Part shown: one piece after another, positions 42,415 through 49,890 of the stretch
Numbering within the stretch: the first letter of the stretch is position 1
How the letters are laid out: the number at the start of each line of letters is the position of its first letter
NCBI GenBank assembly: GCA_016213735.1
Contig: JACQZU010000010.1
Coordinates: forward strand, 1 to 63,181
DNA from: Acidobacteriota bacterium
GTDB lineage: Bacteria > Acidobacteriota > Holophagae > Holophagales > Holophagaceae
Direction of reading: 5' to 3'
DNA: 63,181 nucleotides
Program-made: the position numbers and the translations under genes
Notes under the pieces: generated by a model
Databases searched by the model: none
Seen by the model: the letters and a program-made list of their open reading frames with translations, nothing else
What the model was told of the DNA's origin: nothing

Positions 42415-43419
42415 ATGCCCCGAGGCTTCCTCCTGGCCGGACTGGGCGCCCTGGCCCTGGCCTCCACTCCGATGGCCGGCCAGGCCCCGTCGGGGCCCCC
42501 CATGGCGGGCCGCGCTTCGGAACTCCTGGAGGACATCCGGACTTTCGAGCAGCGCACCGGCGGCAGCGTGGGGGTGGCCATCCTTCATGTGGAGTCGGGG
42601 AGAGAGCTGTTCTACAAGGGAGCCGAATCCTTCCCCATGGCCTCCGTGTACAAGGTCCCCGTGGCGCTGGCCATCCTGGACCTGGTGGATCAGGGCCGCC
42701 TTCAGGCCGCGCAGATGGTCCCGGTGCCCGAGGAGCTGAGGGTGGAATCGGACGGCATCGCGGAGCAGCTGGTGCACCCGGGGATCAGCCTGAGCCTCCT
42801 CAACCTGCTGGAGCTGATGCTGACCCGCAGCGACAACACGGCGACGGACGTGCTCGTGAAGCTTGCCGGGGGTCCGGCCGCGGTGACCCTTTTCCTCAAG
42901 TCCCGGGGCCTCCACGGAATCCGGGTGGACCGGGATACCGCCGCCCTCCTGGAGGACTTCATGGAGATCGGCCGGGGTCCGTACCTGGAGCGACTTGAGA
43001 AGGCCAGGGCCGAAAAGAGGGACCTGGAGATCCGCAGCGGCAAGCCGAACCCCGCCTACGACGAGGACCCTCGGGATACCGCCACCCCGGCCGCCACCGC
43101 CCTCATGCTCGCCCGACTCCACCGCGGTGAGCTCCTGAAACCCGAAAGCACCCGCCTCCTCCTGGACATCATGGCCCGGTGCCGCACGGGCCATCGGCGG
43201 CTCAAGGGACTGCTGCCGGAGGGGACCGTGGTGGCCCACAAGACCGGAAGCCTGGGTGCCACCGCCAACGACGCGGGAATCCTCACCCTGCCGCGGGGCA
43301 AGGGACACCTGGTGGTGGTGGTCTTCGTGAAGAAGAGCACCCGGCCCCACCAAGCCCGGGACCGGGCCATCGCCGAAATCGCCCGGGCCGCCTTCGACCA
43401 CGCCCTGTACGGGCCGTGA
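42415..43419 (+). CDS. Class A beta-lactamase-like serine hydrolase, exported
   Basis: A 334-residue exported protein with a signal peptide ending near ASTPMAGQA. It shows three penicillin-interacting motifs in order: S77-x-x-K80 (MASVYKVP), S139-D-N141 (RSDNTATDVL) and K276-T-G (HKTGSLGATANDAG). The deacylating glutamate of class A enzymes (ExxLN loop) is not seen; the aligned stretch reads DRDTAALLED, and there is an insertion before DTATPAATALML. It may be a slow hydrolase or a peptidoglycan-binding or -cutting enzyme rather than a resistance enzyme. It starts one base after hemN, so it is probably co-transcribed. Confidence 0.82.
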   Translation: MPRGFLLAGLGALALASTPMAGQAPSGPPMAGRASELLEDIRTFEQRTGGSVGVAILHVESGRELFYKGAESFPMASVYKVPVALAILDLVDQGRLQAAQMVPVPEELRVESDGIAEQLVHPGISLSLLNLLELMLTRSDNTATDVLVKLAGGPAAVTLFLKSRGLHGIRVDRDTAALLEDFMEIGRGPYLERLEKARAEKRDLEIRSGKPNPAYDEDPRDTATPAATALMLARLHRGELLKPESTRLLLDIMARCRTGHRRLKGLLPEGTVVAHKTGSLGATANDAGILTLPRGKGHLVVVVFVKKSTRPHQARDRAIAEIARAAFDHALYGP

Positions 43420-43425
43420 ACCCTC

Positions 43426-44658
43426 TCAGGCTCCGGAGTCGCTCCGGAGCAGACGGACGGCGGCCAGACCCAACACCAGCACCACCAGGGCAGCCGCCCA
43501 GGGAAGCCAGGGACGGGCCCGTTCCGCGGCGGCACGGCTCGACGCCTCGCGGGAGGGGATCCCTTCCGGGTCGGATTCCGGGGGTCCCAGGCTCAGGACA
43601 GGCCGGGCCTGGATCGCCCGGCTGGATGGCGGAAGGGAGGCCAGGCTCCCCGGCGCCGGCTTGGCCTCTCCGCCGGTGTGAAGGAAGTATAGGGCACCCC
43701 GCTCCGCCGGGAAGAGGAGCACCTCCCGGCGCACCAGCACCCGCACCTGCTCCACCCGGGCACCCTCCGGAAGGGACCACTCGATCCCGTCCGTGAGGGT
43801 GGGCTCGAGGGCGATCCGGGAGGAGCGGCTCTGCAGCGCGGGCAGGTTCCAGAGCAGGCCCCGGGCCGGGATGGACGATGCAGGTCCCCTGCCTCCGGAT
43901 GGCCGGAAGGCCACGAGGGACATGGGCGCCGCCGGGGGGGCCAGGACAAGGTCCAGGCCCACGATGCGCTCCGGCGCAGGCAGTTTCATGTACCAGCGGG
44001 CGGCAGGGGGCCGGTCGGACGCCAGGGGTCCCCACTGGGCGGGTTCCATCAGGCTTTCCCGGCCGAGGTCCCCGGCCTCGGTGGCGGCGAACACGGAGAG
44101 CCCGGCGAGCCTCGGAGGCCTGCCGTGGAGGGTCCGGAGCACCAGTCGGTAGTGATCTCCATCCCAGGGGATCCGGATGAGGTTGCTTCGGCCCGAGGGG
44201 CCCAGGTCGAAGACATGACGGGGTGGGTCCGCCGGCAGGCGGACGGTCCTCCCTTCCGCCAGGGAACGCTCGACCTCCACCTCGCAGACCCAGGTGCCTT
44301 CCCCGGCGAGGTCCAGGTCGATCCGAAGCTGTTCCCGGTCCCGGGCCTGGGCACCGTCAGGAATCTTGAGGGTGAATTCCGCGGCGGGAGCCCCGTCTTC
44401 CGTTCCCAGGATCCGCTGGCTCAGTTCGAGTCTCCGGGGCTCCCAGAGCCCGTCCCGCTCCAGGAGAAAGGGGACCGGGGTTCCCGTCCCGTCCCCGAGC
44501 CAGAGCCCGGTGGCCTGGCGTTGGGCGGGTCCGTCCAACTCCACCCTGGCCCATCCACTCTCCGTGGGGAGGCTGAGGGGGCGCCGTTCCAGGCCCTGAC
44601 GGGAAGGGGCGCACCCCAGCAGGGCGATCAGGGCCAGGAGGGCGGTCCTCCCCTTCAT
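43426..44658 (-). CDS. DUF3999-family lipoprotein
   Basis: A 410-residue protein with lipobox LLGC (C16), a large beta-rich periplasmic part and one C-terminal membrane helix (LPWAAALVVLVLGLAAVRLL). The WDGDHYRLVL, PRHVFDLG and GRSNLIRIPW stretches fit DUF3999, whose genes commonly sit next to DUF2339 genes, as here. Its ATG overlaps the DUF2339 stop codon (ATGA). Function is unknown; an envelope role with the DUF2339 partner is likely. The frame remains open upstream, but that is inside the partner gene. Confidence 0.8.
   Translation of the reverse strand: MKGRTALLALIALLGCAPSRQGLERRPLSLPTESGWARVELDGPAQRQATGLWLGDGTGTPVPFLLERDGLWEPRRLELSQRILGTEDGAPAAEFTLKIPDGAQARDREQLRIDLDLAGEGTWVCEVEVERSLAEGRTVRLPADPPRHVFDLGPSGRSNLIRIPWDGDHYRLVLRTLHGRPPRLAGLSVFAATEAGDLGRESLMEPAQWGPLASDRPPAARWYMKLPAPERIVGLDLVLAPPAAPMSLVAFRPSGGRGPASSIPARGLLWNLPALQSRSSRIALEPTLTDGIEWSLPEGARVEQVRVLVRREVLLFPAERGALYFLHTGGEAKPAPGSLASLPPSSRAIQARPVLSLGPPESDPEGIPSREASSRAAAERARPWLPWAAALVVLVLGLAAVRLLRSDSGA
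43430..43450. terminator. Hairpin at a convergent junction
   Basis: GCTCCGGAG (43430-43438), a 3-nt loop, then CTCCGGAGC (43442-43450): a perfect 9-bp stem. It lies 10 nt past the beta-lactamase-like stop codon and inside the 3' end of the DUF3999 gene. It probably terminates the plus-strand transcript. No T-tract. Confidence 0.5.
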
Positions 44659-46373
44659 TCGGCCTCCTTCCGGCTCAGCCGGACACGGTTGGCCACCAGG
44701 GCGGCGCCGAGGAAGATGCCCCCCACGCCGAGGAAGACCACGGCTCGCAGGGCCATGTCCGCGCGGTCCAGGTCCACCACCACGAGCTTGAGCCCCGCCA
44801 GCGCCAGCCAGACGTAGCCCGCCACCGCCAGGCCACGGGCCAGGCCGGGGCGCGCCTCCCGCAGACTCCGAATCCACTGGCCCGCCCCGCTGGCCGCGTA
44901 GGTCAACGTCAGGGACATGGAGGCCGCCCGGGCGGACCCCCCCAGCCACCGCACGGCCTGTCCGGCCTCCAGGGCGAGGCCGACATTGGCCACCAGCTGG
45001 AGCAGGGCGAAACTCAGAATCCCCAGGGGCCCCCCGCGACGGGCGAGGAACCCCCACGCCAGGGCTGCGAGAAGCCCTTCGGCGAAGCTCGTGTTGAAGA
45101 CCGGCGTCAGTTGCCGCCAGGGGTAGAGGTCCGCAAGGTGGAAGAGCCACCGGCCGGTGGCGAGGGCCGCCACGGCCACCGCCAGGAAGGCCAGGTGCCG
45201 CCGTTCCTGGACCTCCCCCTCGCCGGCGCCGTCACTGCCCGAGAGCCAGGCCAGGGCCAACGCGTAGGCCGCCCAGAAGGGACCCACCCAGGCCCAGGCC
45301 AGGGCCACGGGCACCGCCAGGGCGAGGTGGCCCGCCGCGAGGGCCAGGAGACCGAAATCGGCACGCCGGTCCCCCAGGCGCACGCGGAGCGGCTTCACGA
45401 GGGCGAGGTTCAGCGCGCCCAGCCCGAGGATCGGCCCTGCGAAAGCCTCGGGCATCCACCCCAGGCGCTTCCAGAGGACCCAGGCCAGGAGGGTTGCGAA
45501 GACGGACACGAAGGACCAGAGCAGGGTGGGGGTGGAGGGGCGCTCAGGGATGCGCGGCAGCCAGACCCAGAGGCCCGAGAGCATCAGGTGCAGCCCCAGC
45601 AGACCCAACAGGGCCGGGGCATCCGAGGGCAGCACCTCCAGGCAGCACAGGGCCAGCAGGATCCAGGTTCCGGCCACGGCGAGCCAGCGCGAGACGCCCC
45701 AGCGGGCCCCCGCCCCGGTGGCGTAGGGGATGGCCAGGGCCGACGCCAGGAGGATGGAGAGGATGACCGCCAGGGCCACCTCGTGGTGCCCGCCCTGGCT
45801 GAAGACCAGGGGTGAGAGGAGGCCGGAGGCCAGGGCCACGCAGAGGCTGGCTCCGGACCGGGCCCGGGCCGCCAGGGCCCCGGCGAAGAGCACAGCCACC
45901 GAGGAGGCCGCGAAGCCCAGGGAGGGTGGGAAGAAGTGGGCCTCGAAGGCCCCCCAGCGGAGCGTGAAGATCAGGGTGCCCAAGCCTGCGAGCAGGAAAC
46001 TCACGCCGACCTTTCGGCTCGAGCCTAGGATCATCCGGGCAGCCCCGGCGGTGATTCCGGCCCCTGCCAGGAGGCCCAGGAGGAACCTGGCCTCGGGCCC
46101 GATCCAGCCCCGCTGGATGGCGAGGTGCAGAAAGAAGACCGCGCCCAGGAGGAAAATCCCCGCCCCCGCCGCCGCCACGAAGAGGATGGGGTTCAGCGGC
46201 TTCCGGACCCGGGGAGGCGGCGCGGGCCGGCGGGCGGGAAGCGGGGTGGAAGCCCTGGGGGCTTGGGGCGGGCCGGTCGTCGCGCCCTGCAGGGCCTGCA
46301 CCTGCTGCCACAGCCAGGCCACCTGGGCTTCGAGTCGAACCACGCGCTCGTCAAGGTTGGGTTCTTCGCTCAT
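44655..46373 (-). CDS. DUF2339-family polytopic membrane protein
   Basis: A 572-residue inner-membrane protein. It begins with a cytoplasmic coiled coil (LDERVVRLEAQVAWLWQQVQAL) and a proline-rich linker, followed by about 18 hydrophobic segments. The coiled coil, linker and LNPILFVAAAGAGIFLLGAVFFLHLAIQRGW are typical of DUF2339. Function is not known. The ATG at 46373 is preferred (GGCGGG 6 nt upstream); in-frame ATGs at 46379 and 46394 are alternatives. It is divergent from hemH and translationally coupled to the DUF3999 gene. Confidence 0.85.
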   Translation of the reverse strand: MSEEPNLDERVVRLEAQVAWLWQQVQALQGATTGPPQAPRASTPLPARRPAPPPRVRKPLNPILFVAAAGAGIFLLGAVFFLHLAIQRGWIGPEARFLLGLLAGAGITAGAARMILGSSRKVGVSFLLAGLGTLIFTLRWGAFEAHFFPPSLGFAASSVAVLFAGALAARARSGASLCVALASGLLSPLVFSQGGHHEVALAVILSILLASALAIPYATGAGARWGVSRWLAVAGTWILLALCCLEVLPSDAPALLGLLGLHLMLSGLWVWLPRIPERPSTPTLLWSFVSVFATLLAWVLWKRLGWMPEAFAGPILGLGALNLALVKPLRVRLGDRRADFGLLALAAGHLALAVPVALAWAWVGPFWAAYALALAWLSGSDGAGEGEVQERRHLAFLAVAVAALATGRWLFHLADLYPWRQLTPVFNTSFAEGLLAALAWGFLARRGGPLGILSFALLQLVANVGLALEAGQAVRWLGGSARAASMSLTLTYAASGAGQWIRSLREARPGLARGLAVAGYVWLALAGLKLVVVDLDRADMALRAVVFLGVGGIFLGAALVANRVRLSRKEAE

Positions 46374-46427
46374 GGTCATCCCGCCCGTCACCATAGCGCC
46401 CTTTCAAGCCGCCGTGCCGGTGAAGGC

Positions 46428-46439: not shown

Positions 46440-47396
46440 ATGGGAATCCCACCCGACACGGCCGTGCTGCTTCTCAACATGGGGGGGCCGCTTCGCGCCG
46501 ACCGTGTGGAGCCCTTCCTGCGGGAGCTCTTCAATGACCGGGACATCATCCGCCTGGGGCCGGCCTTCCTGCAGCCGCTGATCGCGCGCATCATCGTCGG
46601 GGCCCGGCTGAAAGACGTGGTCCAGCGGTACGGCGAGATCGGAGGCGGCAGCCCCATCCTCCGCGAGTCCGCCGCCCAGGCCGCCGCCCTTCGCCGGGCC
46701 CTGCGGGAGGCTGGGCGGAGCGAGCCCGTGAAGCTGGTCTTCCGGTACGCGGCCCCCCGGGCCGAGGGAATGCTGCGGGCCCTGCGGCGGGACGGGATCC
46801 GACGCCTGCTTCCCGTGACCCTCTACCCCCACGACTGCCGGGCCACCACCGGCTCCAGCCTGCGGGACCTGGAGCGTCGGGCCGCCGGCTTCGGCATGGA
46901 GATCCTGGAGGGGGTCCGGCACTACGCCACCGACGAGGATTTCCTGTCCTCGGTGGAGGAACGCATCCGGGAGGCCCTGCGGGAACGCCCCGGGGCCACG
47001 GTGCTTTTCAGCGCCCACAGCCTGCCCCGGAAGCAAGTGGAACAGGGGGACCCCTACGAGCGGGAGATCAGGGCCACGGTGGCAGCCCTGGAAGCCCGCC
47101 TGGGACCGCTTCCCGGTGGGTTCCGCCTGGCCTTCCAGAGCAAGGTGGGACCCATCCCCTGGCTGGAGCCCAATGTGGCCGATGTGATTCCGGAACTGGC
47201 GGGGCGGGAAGTCGTGGTCGTGCCCATCGCCTTCGTCAGCGAGCACATCGAGACCCTCCACGAGCTGGACATCGAGTACGCCCACCTGGCGAGGGAGCGG
47301 GGCGTGGCCGCCTGGATTCGCGTCCCCACCCCCGGCACCCACCCCGCGTACATCCGCTGCCTGACCCGGAGGACGCTGGCCGCCCTGAAGGCTTGA
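46440..47396 (+). CDS. hemH: Ferrochelatase
   Basis: Inserts ferrous iron into protoporphyrin IX (or coproporphyrin III) at the end of heme synthesis. The 318 residues include AVLLLNMGGPLRADRVEPFLRELFND, RYGEIGGGSPIL, LFSAHSLPRKQVEQGDPYEREI with the catalytic histidine, LAFQSKVGPIPWLEPNVADVI, and VVVPIAFVSEHIETLHELDIEY with the glutamate and second histidine. HemN and HemG nearby suggest the protoporphyrin route. It is transcribed apart from the hemC-hemN run. Confidence 0.97.
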   Translation: MGIPPDTAVLLLNMGGPLRADRVEPFLRELFNDRDIIRLGPAFLQPLIARIIVGARLKDVVQRYGEIGGGSPILRESAAQAAALRRALREAGRSEPVKLVFRYAAPRAEGMLRALRRDGIRRLLPVTLYPHDCRATTGSSLRDLERRAAGFGMEILEGVRHYATDEDFLSSVEERIREALRERPGATVLFSAHSLPRKQVEQGDPYEREIRATVAALEARLGPLPGGFRLAFQSKVGPIPWLEPNVADVIPELAGREVVVVPIAFVSEHIETLHELDIEYAHLARERGVAAWIRVPTPGTHPAYIRCLTRRTLAALKA

Positions 47397-47458: not shown

Positions 47459-48475
47459 TCAGAAGGGGATGGCCATTCGGCGAAGCTCCGCCATGAGCAG
47501 CACGGGGGTGGTGAAGGGAAGGGTCTGGAGTCCGGCGCCCTGGGCGGCCTTCAGGAACGAAGCTTCCCGGCCGATGTACAGGCAGGATTCCTGGGGGACG
47601 CCCAGTCGCAGCAGCGTCTTACGGAAAACGGCCGGATCCGGGAGGGCAGCCCCGGCTTCGCAGGACAGCACGGTGGCGTGGAACACACCCTTGAGCCCCA
47701 TGGTCTCCAGGCCCCGCGCCTTGATCCAGGGGGCCCCGTTGCCCGTCAGGGCGGCCCGGTGCTGCTGGCCGAGCCCTCTCGCCAGGTTCACCAGGGCCGG
47801 CTGGACCCGGAAGGCCCCCAGGTAGGCCTGCTCGACTCCGGCGGGATCCACAGGGGCCCCTGCCCAGGCCTCCAGGGCCGCGAAGAAGCCCGAGGGTTCC
47901 AGGTCGCCGCCTTCGAGTCCCCGCAGGGCCCCGGGCGCCTCCCACAGGAAGGCGTTCACCGCTTCCCGCGGCTGTCCGGTCCGGTCCGCGAGGAAATCCG
48001 TGAGGTGCCCCTGGTCCCGGGTCGCCAGCACACCCTCCAGTGCGAAGATCACTCCCAGCAGGGGCGCGGACGGCAGGGCTCGCTGGAGGAAGGGGGCGTA
48101 GTCCTGGTCCGACTTGGTGATGTGCTCCAGGTACCAGGTCTTGAGAAAGTCCACGGTCTGCTCGACCGCCTCGGAATCCGCGGGGTCGAAGGAGGCCCCG
48201 AGTTCGGCCACGCGGGCCATGAAGGCCTCGTGCTCCACCCGGTGCTCCGGAAGCCGGGGGTAGTCCGCCGCCTGCATGTAGCGCTCCTCGGCGCTGAAAT
48301 GCGTCTGGGCGTACTCGCAGAGATGGCGGAAAATCGTGGAGACCTGTTCGGGTTCGGGAGAGGGGACTCCGAGGAGGTCGATGAGCTCGTTGAGCATCTC
48401 CAGCAGGCCGCGGTGGTGGGCGTCGATCTCACGGAAATGGATGTTGTAGCGGTCCTTCCACTGGATGTGAAGCAT
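47459..48475 (-). CDS. Bacteriohemerythrin fused to a degenerate HAD domain
   Basis: A 338-residue cytoplasmic protein. Residues 1-130 are a bacteriohemerythrin with all seven di-iron ligands visible: H21, H59, E63, H78, H82, H118 and D123. Residues 139-330 follow a haloacid dehalogenase layout (LLGVIFALEGVLATRD, then ALTGNGAPWIKARGLE, then LPDPAVFRKTLLRLGVPQESCLYIGREASFLKAAQGAG). The catalytic DxD is replaced by A145 and E147, the usual K before PDP is leucine, and the late DD pair is lost. So it is probably an oxygen or NO/iron sensor with a non-catalytic binding domain. GGAGG lies 4 nt before the ATG. It sits between hemH and hemG. Confidence 0.85.
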   Translation of the reverse strand: MLHIQWKDRYNIHFREIDAHHRGLLEMLNELIDLLGVPSPEPEQVSTIFRHLCEYAQTHFSAEERYMQAADYPRLPEHRVEHEAFMARVAELGASFDPADSEAVEQTVDFLKTWYLEHITKSDQDYAPFLQRALPSAPLLGVIFALEGVLATRDQGHLTDFLADRTGQPREAVNAFLWEAPGALRGLEGGDLEPSGFFAALEAWAGAPVDPAGVEQAYLGAFRVQPALVNLARGLGQQHRAALTGNGAPWIKARGLETMGLKGVFHATVLSCEAGAALPDPAVFRKTLLRLGVPQESCLYIGREASFLKAAQGAGLQTLPFTTPVLLMAELRRMAIPF

Positions 48476-48576
48476 GGGACCTCCGGACGAGGGGCTTTTC
48501 GGCACCTCCGGGGCCCGGGTCGAGAAACGATCCCGGCCGGGTGACTCCGGTCAAGGACCGGCCGCGCCGGGACGCC

Positions 48577-48588: not shown

Positions 48589-49890
48589 ATGCGGACCCTC
48601 GTGATCGGCGGCGGCGTGACCGGCCTCCTGGCGGCCTGGCACCTTCAGAAACGCGGCCAGGCGGCGGAATTGTGGGAGGCCGAGGACCGCCCCGGGGGTT
48701 GGGTTCAGACCCTGCCCTGGGACCACTCCGATGGCCGCCCGGGCCACGTGGAGAAGGGCCCCCAGGGCATCCTCTGGCAACCTGGAACGCCCGTGGACCG
48801 GGTCTTCAAGGGCCTGGACCTCGCGGTGGAAAGCCCTGTGAAGGAACAAGGCCAGGGGCAGCGCTGGGTGGGGAAGGGGGGCCGTCTCATTCCCGTTCCC
48901 GCCCACCCCGTGAAATTGATGACCTCGCCCTTGATGTCCCTTGGGACCAAGCTTCGGCTCTTCAGGGAACCCTTCGTCAAGCCTGGCCCCCCCGAGCCCG
49001 AGGAAGGCCTGGAGGAATTCATCTCCCGGCGGGCGGGCCGGGGTCTGGCCGAAGAACTCCTTCCGGCCATGGTGGCCGGCATTCTGGCCGCGCCCACCCA
49101 TCTCCTCAGCGTGGATGCGCTGCCCACCCTCCGGAAATGGGAATCCCACGGCAGCCTGTTCGCAGGGGTCCGGAAGAACGGGGTGAGCCACCTCATGGTC
49201 CCCCAGGGGGGCATGGGAGGCTTGACCGCCCGGTTGGCCGCCTCGCTTCCCGAGGTGCAGGTGGCCCGGAAAGCCGAACGCCTGGAACGCCTTCCCGGGG
49301 GCCGCTGGCGGGTCTGGGGCGGCGGGGAAGAAGCCGAGGCGGATCAGGTGGTCCTGGCCCTGCCGGCCTACGCCGCCGCGGAACTTCTGGCCCCCCACGC
49401 CGAGGCAAGCGCCGAGGCCCTTCGGGCCATCCCCTACACCTCCGTGAATCTCTGGAACAGCCGCCACACGCCCCTCGCGCCCTTCCGGGACGGATTCGGA
49501 TTCCTCATCCATCCCCCGGAAGGGAACAGCTACCTGGGAAGCCTGGTCCCTTCCTGGATCGAGCCGAGTTCCTGCGCCCCGGAATTCATGCAGCTCCGGA
49601 GCTTCATCGGGGACCCCCACCTCTGGGGGGTGCGCCGGGAGGAGCGGCCCACCTGGGAATGGGTGTGGACGCAGATCCGGCGCTGGGTGCCTGGCCTTTC
49701 GGAGGCCGTCCAGACCCGGGAGGACCGGGCCCACCAGGCCATCCCCCGGGCGGAGAAGGGACACCGGGGGAGGGTGCGCACCGCCGTGGAGGGTCTTCCC
49801 CAGGGGATCGAATGGATTTCCAACGCCCGTTTCGGCCCGGGCGTGCGGGATGTGATGGAAGGCCTGGAGGCTTGGGTCCAGGAGAGGTGA
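48589..49890 (+). CDS. hemG: Protoporphyrinogen oxidase, HemY/PgoX flavoprotein type
   Basis: FAD enzyme that oxidises protoporphyrinogen IX to protoporphyrin IX. The 433 residues open with RTLVIGGGVTGLLAAWHLQKRGQAAELWEAEDRPGGWVQT (dinucleotide-binding fold and the flavin GG motif), then EEFISRRAGRGLAEELLPAMVAGILA, ALPAYAAAEL, and a C-terminal GLPQGIEWISNARFGPGVRDVMEG resembling the FAD-closing GNGVDD region. Classification is HemY-like amine oxidase; its genetic neighbours support the function. A coproporphyrinogen-oxidising role cannot be excluded. Confidence 0.9.
   Translation: MRTLVIGGGVTGLLAAWHLQKRGQAAELWEAEDRPGGWVQTLPWDHSDGRPGHVEKGPQGILWQPGTPVDRVFKGLDLAVESPVKEQGQGQRWVGKGGRLIPVPAHPVKLMTSPLMSLGTKLRLFREPFVKPGPPEPEEGLEEFISRRAGRGLAEELLPAMVAGILAAPTHLLSVDALPTLRKWESHGSLFAGVRKNGVSHLMVPQGGMGGLTARLAASLPEVQVARKAERLERLPGGRWRVWGGGEEAEADQVVLALPAYAAAELLAPHAEASAEALRAIPYTSVNLWNSRHTPLAPFRDGFGFLIHPPEGNSYLGSLVPSWIEPSSCAPEFMQLRSFIGDPHLWGVRREERPTWEWVWTQIRRWVPGLSEAVQTREDRAHQAIPRAEKGHRGRVRTAVEGLPQGIEWISNARFGPGVRDVMEGLEAWVQER

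Follow-up and report, generated by a model that had tools for sequence, protein, structure and literature searches.

The window, a stretch of 63,181 nucleotides on a contig from a member of the Holophagaceae (Acidobacteriota), carries a fusion gene that lies antisense between hemH and hemG within a hemC-D-L-E-N cluster and encodes a bacteriohemerythrin joined to a HAD domain. This two-domain architecture had been proposed by a first inspection of the letters (the sequence-only reading) and was confirmed by family models and by structure comparison of an AlphaFold model; the location proposed there, 47459-48475 between hemH and hemG, also holds, with the gene on the minus strand. The 338-residue frame begins at the ATG at 48475 and closes with a stop codon at 47461-47459 (Table 1). 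A GTG upstream of this ATG, at 48505, is an unlikely start because the relatives begin with the same M-x-x-I-x-W-K-D that follows from the ATG. Both strands are open in the GC-rich DNA of the fusion loci, and an open frame is by itself weak evidence here since a GC-rich genome has long chance frames. The fusion frame is nevertheless not a product of chance, because full-length relatives (approximately 30-53% identity to the window protein) are found in 23 other genomes and the codon models detect purifying selection. A scan for a promoter and a terminator at the fusion gene found nothing.

Table 1. Genes, domains and lost catalytic positions at the hemerythrin-HAD locus of the window.
Feature	Position	Strand	Remarks
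hemH (ferrochelatase)	46440..47396	+	Neighbour, on the strand opposite to the fusion gene
Hemerythrin - pseudo-HAD fusion gene	47459..48475	-	338 aa; ATG start at 48475, conserved in relatives
Bacteriohemerythrin domain, residues 1-133	48077..48475	-	Family models, ligands, structure comparison
YihX-like HAD domain, residues 136-338, catalytically degenerate	47462..48070	-	AlphaFold model, structure comparison
HAD C1 cap, approximately residues 155-222	47810..48013	-	Counterpart deleted in frame in G033
A145, lost nucleophile Asp	48041..48043	-	Intact relatives keep Asp; the remaining 7 dead members have Gly
G245, lost motif II Ser	47741..47743	-	Gly in 8/8 dead members
L278, lost motif III Lys	47642..47644	-	Leu in dead members, Pro in G033
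G302-R303, lost motif IV acidic pair	47567..47572	-	His-Arg in other dead members
hemG/hemY-type protoporphyrinogen oxidase (Pfam Amino_oxidase)	48589..49890	+	Divergent neighbour; directly after hemH in relatives

The N-terminal half scores well above the family cut-offs of PF01814 (64.5 bits; cut-off, 25.3), NF033749 (118; 84), and TIGR02481 (109.4; 51.75), and in the AlphaFold model it is placed on DcrH-Hr (2avk; VIA Z 18.9, rmsd 1.8). All seven di-iron ligands of the pattern H-HxxxE-HxxxH-HxxxxD are present, as the sequence-only reading had said (H21, H59, E63, H78, H82, H118, and D123), and by sequence the domain is predicted to be competent for a di-iron site. The four-helix fold is shared with the bacteriohemerythrins of Methylococcus capsulatus (4XPX) and of Desulfovibrio vulgaris (DcrH-Hr, 2AVK/2AWC) at VIA Z 17.5-19.0 and an rmsd of about 1.8-2.2, and so are the seven ligands. 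These proteins, however, either consist of a single domain or are fused to a chemoreceptor, whereas the partner in the window protein is a HAD.

The AlphaFold model of the whole protein has a pLDDT of 89.8, with the HAD domain mostly above 90, and displays both the HAD Rossmann core and the C1 cap (VIA Z 22.8 against 3cnh and 19.4 against YihX 8pno, with approximately 190 to 198 residues aligned). Fold and cap are the same as in the YihX/HAD-1A3 group, which includes the Escherichia coli glucose-1-phosphatase (2B0C, 8PNE, and 8PNO), Bacteroides BT_2542, and the N-terminal phosphatase of soluble epoxide hydrolase, but the window protein lacks all of the catalytic residues. None of the four catalytic HAD motifs (Asp, Ser/Thr, Lys, and acidic pair) is retained. 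These losses were assessed in a ligand and motif table of 30 sequences (19 fusions with an intact HAD, 8 fusions with a catalytically dead HAD, and 3 unfused HADs), and they are real because D, S, K, and DD occupy the same columns in the intact fusions and in the unfused HADs. An intact DxD displaced in an offset alignment was looked for among the homologues, and this explanation is ruled out, as the motifs of the intact relatives show no offset. Nucleophile Asp and Lys are found in 19 of the 19 aligned intact fusions, the single exceptions at the other motifs being an Ala in motif II (L013) and an N-D pair in motif IV (L026).

The loss of the lysine and of the late acidic pair reported by the sequence-only reading is borne out by the alignment, with L278 and G302-R303 standing against K and DD in the intact relatives. 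Its claim of a lost DxD motif holds for A145, where the nucleophile Asp has gone, and fails for E147: nothing has been lost there, since Gly is the residue of the intact relatives at this +2 position (18/19 aligned intact fusions and 3/3 unfused HADs that were aligned), in keeping with the 'DxGNV' motif of the YihX type. The loss of the motif II Ser (G245) had not been reported. Arg303 is invariant in all eight dead members and absent from the intact ones. The intact members match YihX by sequence. The window protein scores 22.5 against a cut-off of 125.4 for TIGR02247, and PRK09456 is not among its matches, although this subfamily test is weak because an intact relative (L020) also stays below the cut-offs of both models (TIGR02247, 64.3 versus 125.4; PRK09456, 62.2 versus 295).

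A search of 77 Holophagaceae genomes, followed by a profile search over the class, identified 28 fusion genes in 24 genomes, all of them Holophagaceae. The HAD looks intact in 20 of these (19 of which were aligned) and is dead in 8, namely, the window protein and those of G018, G022, G029, G031, G033, G038, and G045. Searches of 396 genomes from the phylum and 93 from the class found no fusion outside the Holophagaceae. A pattern scan, which finds close relatives only, returned five named matches, all from uncultured Holophagaceae, and no fusion in other phyla. Spread by phages or plasmids was considered and rejected: a pattern scan found no relative in viral contigs, and plasmids hold no full-length relative, with no record covering 80%.

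The architecture thus occurs repeatedly within one family, and the loss of the HAD motifs is common to 8 of the 28 fusions, which form one clade. Both trees recover this clade, with support of 100/100 for the HAD and 100/99 for the hemerythrin, but its stem measures 1.91 changes per site in the former and only 0.37 in the latter, which places the evolutionary burst in the HAD. Active and dead fusions stand in tandem in G031 and G038. Pseudoenzymes often act as regulators of active partners, and the tandem copies would fit a dead fusion that regulates the active one through mixed dimers in genomes with both. However, an intact homologue is absent (E 1e-6) from six of the eight dead-copy genomes (G000, which is the window genome, G018, G022, G029, G033, and G045), which makes the dead protein more than an accessory to an active one, and we consider regulation through mixed dimers very unlikely. 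The dead fusion of G033 (L025, G033:C1:51952-52761), from a genome listed as 99% complete, has lost approximately 70 residues in frame, corresponding to the C1 cap, while the HAD core and the C terminus are retained.

The position of the window gene had led the sequence-only reading to suggest a link to heme or iron supply, and a sensor tied to that supply would agree with a gene between hemH and hemG inside the hemC-D-L-E-N cluster. The comparison of relatives argues against it. The hemH and hemG genes are adjacent (45-59 bp apart), with no intervening gene, in 23 of the 29 loci examined in relatives (in the other 6, hemG was not found within the stretch examined), and a fusion between them is seen in the window genome only. 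The gene is not part of the hem operon because it lies antisense between hemH and hemG; conserved linkage on the same strand, as expected of a member, is not what was found, the arrangement being antisense and confined to one genome. In the window, genes that resemble by eye a class A beta-lactamase, DUF3999, and DUF2339 (42415-46394) separate hemN from hemH, and hemN adjoins hemH in relatives L077, L085, L087, L090, and L103.

The conserved site of the family is elsewhere. It has the order NMT1-type ABC transporter genes, small membrane protein, fusion, pyridoxamine-oxidase-like FMN protein, and mutS (Pfam assignments), and it is found on 21 fusion-bearing contigs, which include all seven other dead members; most intact fusions are located there too. 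Depending on the genome, this site hosts an unfused HAD (G009, G020, G043, G004, G008, and G050), an active fusion, or a dead fusion. In the window genome this site persists on a different contig (L075, G000:C23:66000-85900) but lacks a fusion; the interval from the ABC transporter to the FMN protein is taken up by unrelated genes, among them, by eye, a TetR-like regulator and a cyclic-nucleotide-binding-like protein. Because the seven other dead members lie at the ABC/mutS site and hemH and hemG are adjacent in 23 relatives, the heme setting is best explained as a relocation in one genome. Conservation of the heme-gene context, which the sequence-only reading had put forward for checking, was therefore not observed, and a sensor of heme or iron supply appears highly improbable. 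Function should not be inferred from a heme-cluster position that is found in a single genome.

Maximum likelihood codon models were used to assess selection on the HAD, because the NG86 dN/dS values of the window HAD (0.5-0.65) are inflated by saturation. In unsaturated close pairs, omega of the dead HAD is 0.06-0.13, versus 0.05-0.11 for active pairs. On the window's own branch the HAD has an omega of 0.19 and neutrality (omega = 1) is rejected (2dlnL 17.8), an estimate that rests on near-saturated synonymous sites, the window HAD being the most diverged of the dead clade; the remaining dead clade has an omega of 0.10. On the stem of the clade, which is saturated, omega = 1 is not rejected (2dlnL 2.3). 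A decaying pseudogene is ruled out by this purifying selection, and the dead HAD is regarded as a maintained pseudophosphatase because the codon models reject neutrality, on the window branch included. The combined evidence of motifs and substitutions supports the view that the window HAD cannot catalyze by the canonical mechanism, yet is maintained.

Such constraint, together with the residues invariant in the dead clade only (R303, Q312, T318, and W204), could in principle reflect a new, non-canonical catalytic activity. We regard this as scarcely probable, as all four motif positions are lost, the cap is missing in G033, and candidate catalytic residues of other members are not shared: His302 and a nearby Cys are not retained in the window protein. 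For the latter reason, a shared new binding site is also not clearly conserved.

The simplest of the rival explanations is that the protein functions as an oxygen carrier or delivery hemerythrin only, the dead HAD being a structural remnant that serves folding, stability, or dimers with no signal output. Several observations are in line with it. Within the dead clade, conservation is higher in the hemerythrin (mean identity, 73%) than in the HAD (59%), the cap is deleted in G033, several further hemerythrin-domain genes are present in the window genome, and in G018 and G029 the dead fusion is followed by a stand-alone hemerythrin that lacks a HAD. The cap deletion and the hemerythrin-only genes hint that the protein can do without its HAD part. 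Against this explanation, the constraint on the dead HAD is close to that on the active one, 44 of its columns are invariant, and its C terminus is highly conserved (80%); we judge the explanation rather unlikely. The stand-alone hemerythrins (L046:10633-11055 and L049:14965-15399) occupy the place where G038 has its active fusion, and they are possibly active fusions that have shed the HAD.

On balance, the window gene appears to encode a two-domain protein in which a di-iron bacteriohemerythrin head is joined to a YihX-like HAD turned pseudophosphatase, a non-catalytic module for binding or scaffolding. What was once the enzyme part probably acts through binding alone or serves to keep the protein together. 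The sequence-only reading had proposed an output by binding only, and this remains the best reading of the HAD once widened to binding or scaffold, because the domain is non-catalytic by its motifs and maintained by selection. Binding of O2 or NO is a property of characterized bacteriohemerythrins. In the mechanism considered most likely, O2 or NO would bind reversibly to the di-iron site of the hemerythrin, and the HAD fold would serve, without catalysis, as a module for dimerization or for binding a ligand or partner; as a guess, Arg303, which stands where the acidic pair used to be, may hold an anion in the absence of Mg2+. The window protein may be a sensor of O2, NO, or iron, as the sequence-only reading proposed, but it may just as well carry oxygen and retain the HAD as a vestigial scaffold. 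A more specific version, in which the O2 or NO state of the hemerythrin controls binding of a phosphorylated metabolite or a partner at the former active site, with Arg303 in place of Mg2+, is tentative and, in our estimation, unlikely. If true, such a hemerythrin-gated pseudophosphatase would be a new type of output for hemerythrin sensors, with the active ancestor preserved nearby in some genomes.

We hypothesize the following history for the binding or scaffolding module. A stand-alone active HAD at the ABC transporter/mutS locus would have gained an N-terminal hemerythrin, and the fusion would then have duplicated, with tandem active and dead copies surviving in two genomes. One copy may have lost all four catalytic motifs in a single burst and come under purifying selection thereafter, to be left as the sole copy in six genomes, and in the window genome the dead fusion would have moved to the heme cluster. 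The family forms a natural series at one chromosomal site, from unfused active HAD through active fusion, tandem copies, and dead fusion alone to a dead fusion without cap; what a pseudophosphatase gains after the loss of catalysis can therefore be tested directly, as can the gating of a phosphatase by a hemerythrin.

Mammalian soluble epoxide hydrolase is likewise a two-domain protein with a HAD from this structural group, joined to a different partner. In this hydrolase and in the drimenol synthases, the HAD is generally described as active. Bacterial drimenol synthases are described as a HAD joined to a terpene cyclase (PMC9128629); the HAD module belongs to the same structural group, and its partner domain is different from the hemerythrin of the window protein. 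A survey of hemerythrins reports 56 domain architectures, with chemoreceptor and GGDEF fusions the commonest (PMC4919030). In the architectures described there, the hemerythrin sits at one end of a longer protein as the part that senses or binds, as in the window protein, and hemerythrin-HAD is not among the frequent architectures that the survey names. No description of a hemerythrin-HAD fusion was found in the literature searched.

Additional observations concern individual members of the family. The seven di-iron ligands are retained in all eight dead-HAD fusions, and H78 is replaced by Gln in 8 of the 19 aligned intact-HAD fusions (L018, L022, L024, L026, L027, L029, L034, and L035). L026 (G030:C86:21311-22321) also has an in-frame TAA near residue 14, which marks either a pseudogene or a sequencing error.
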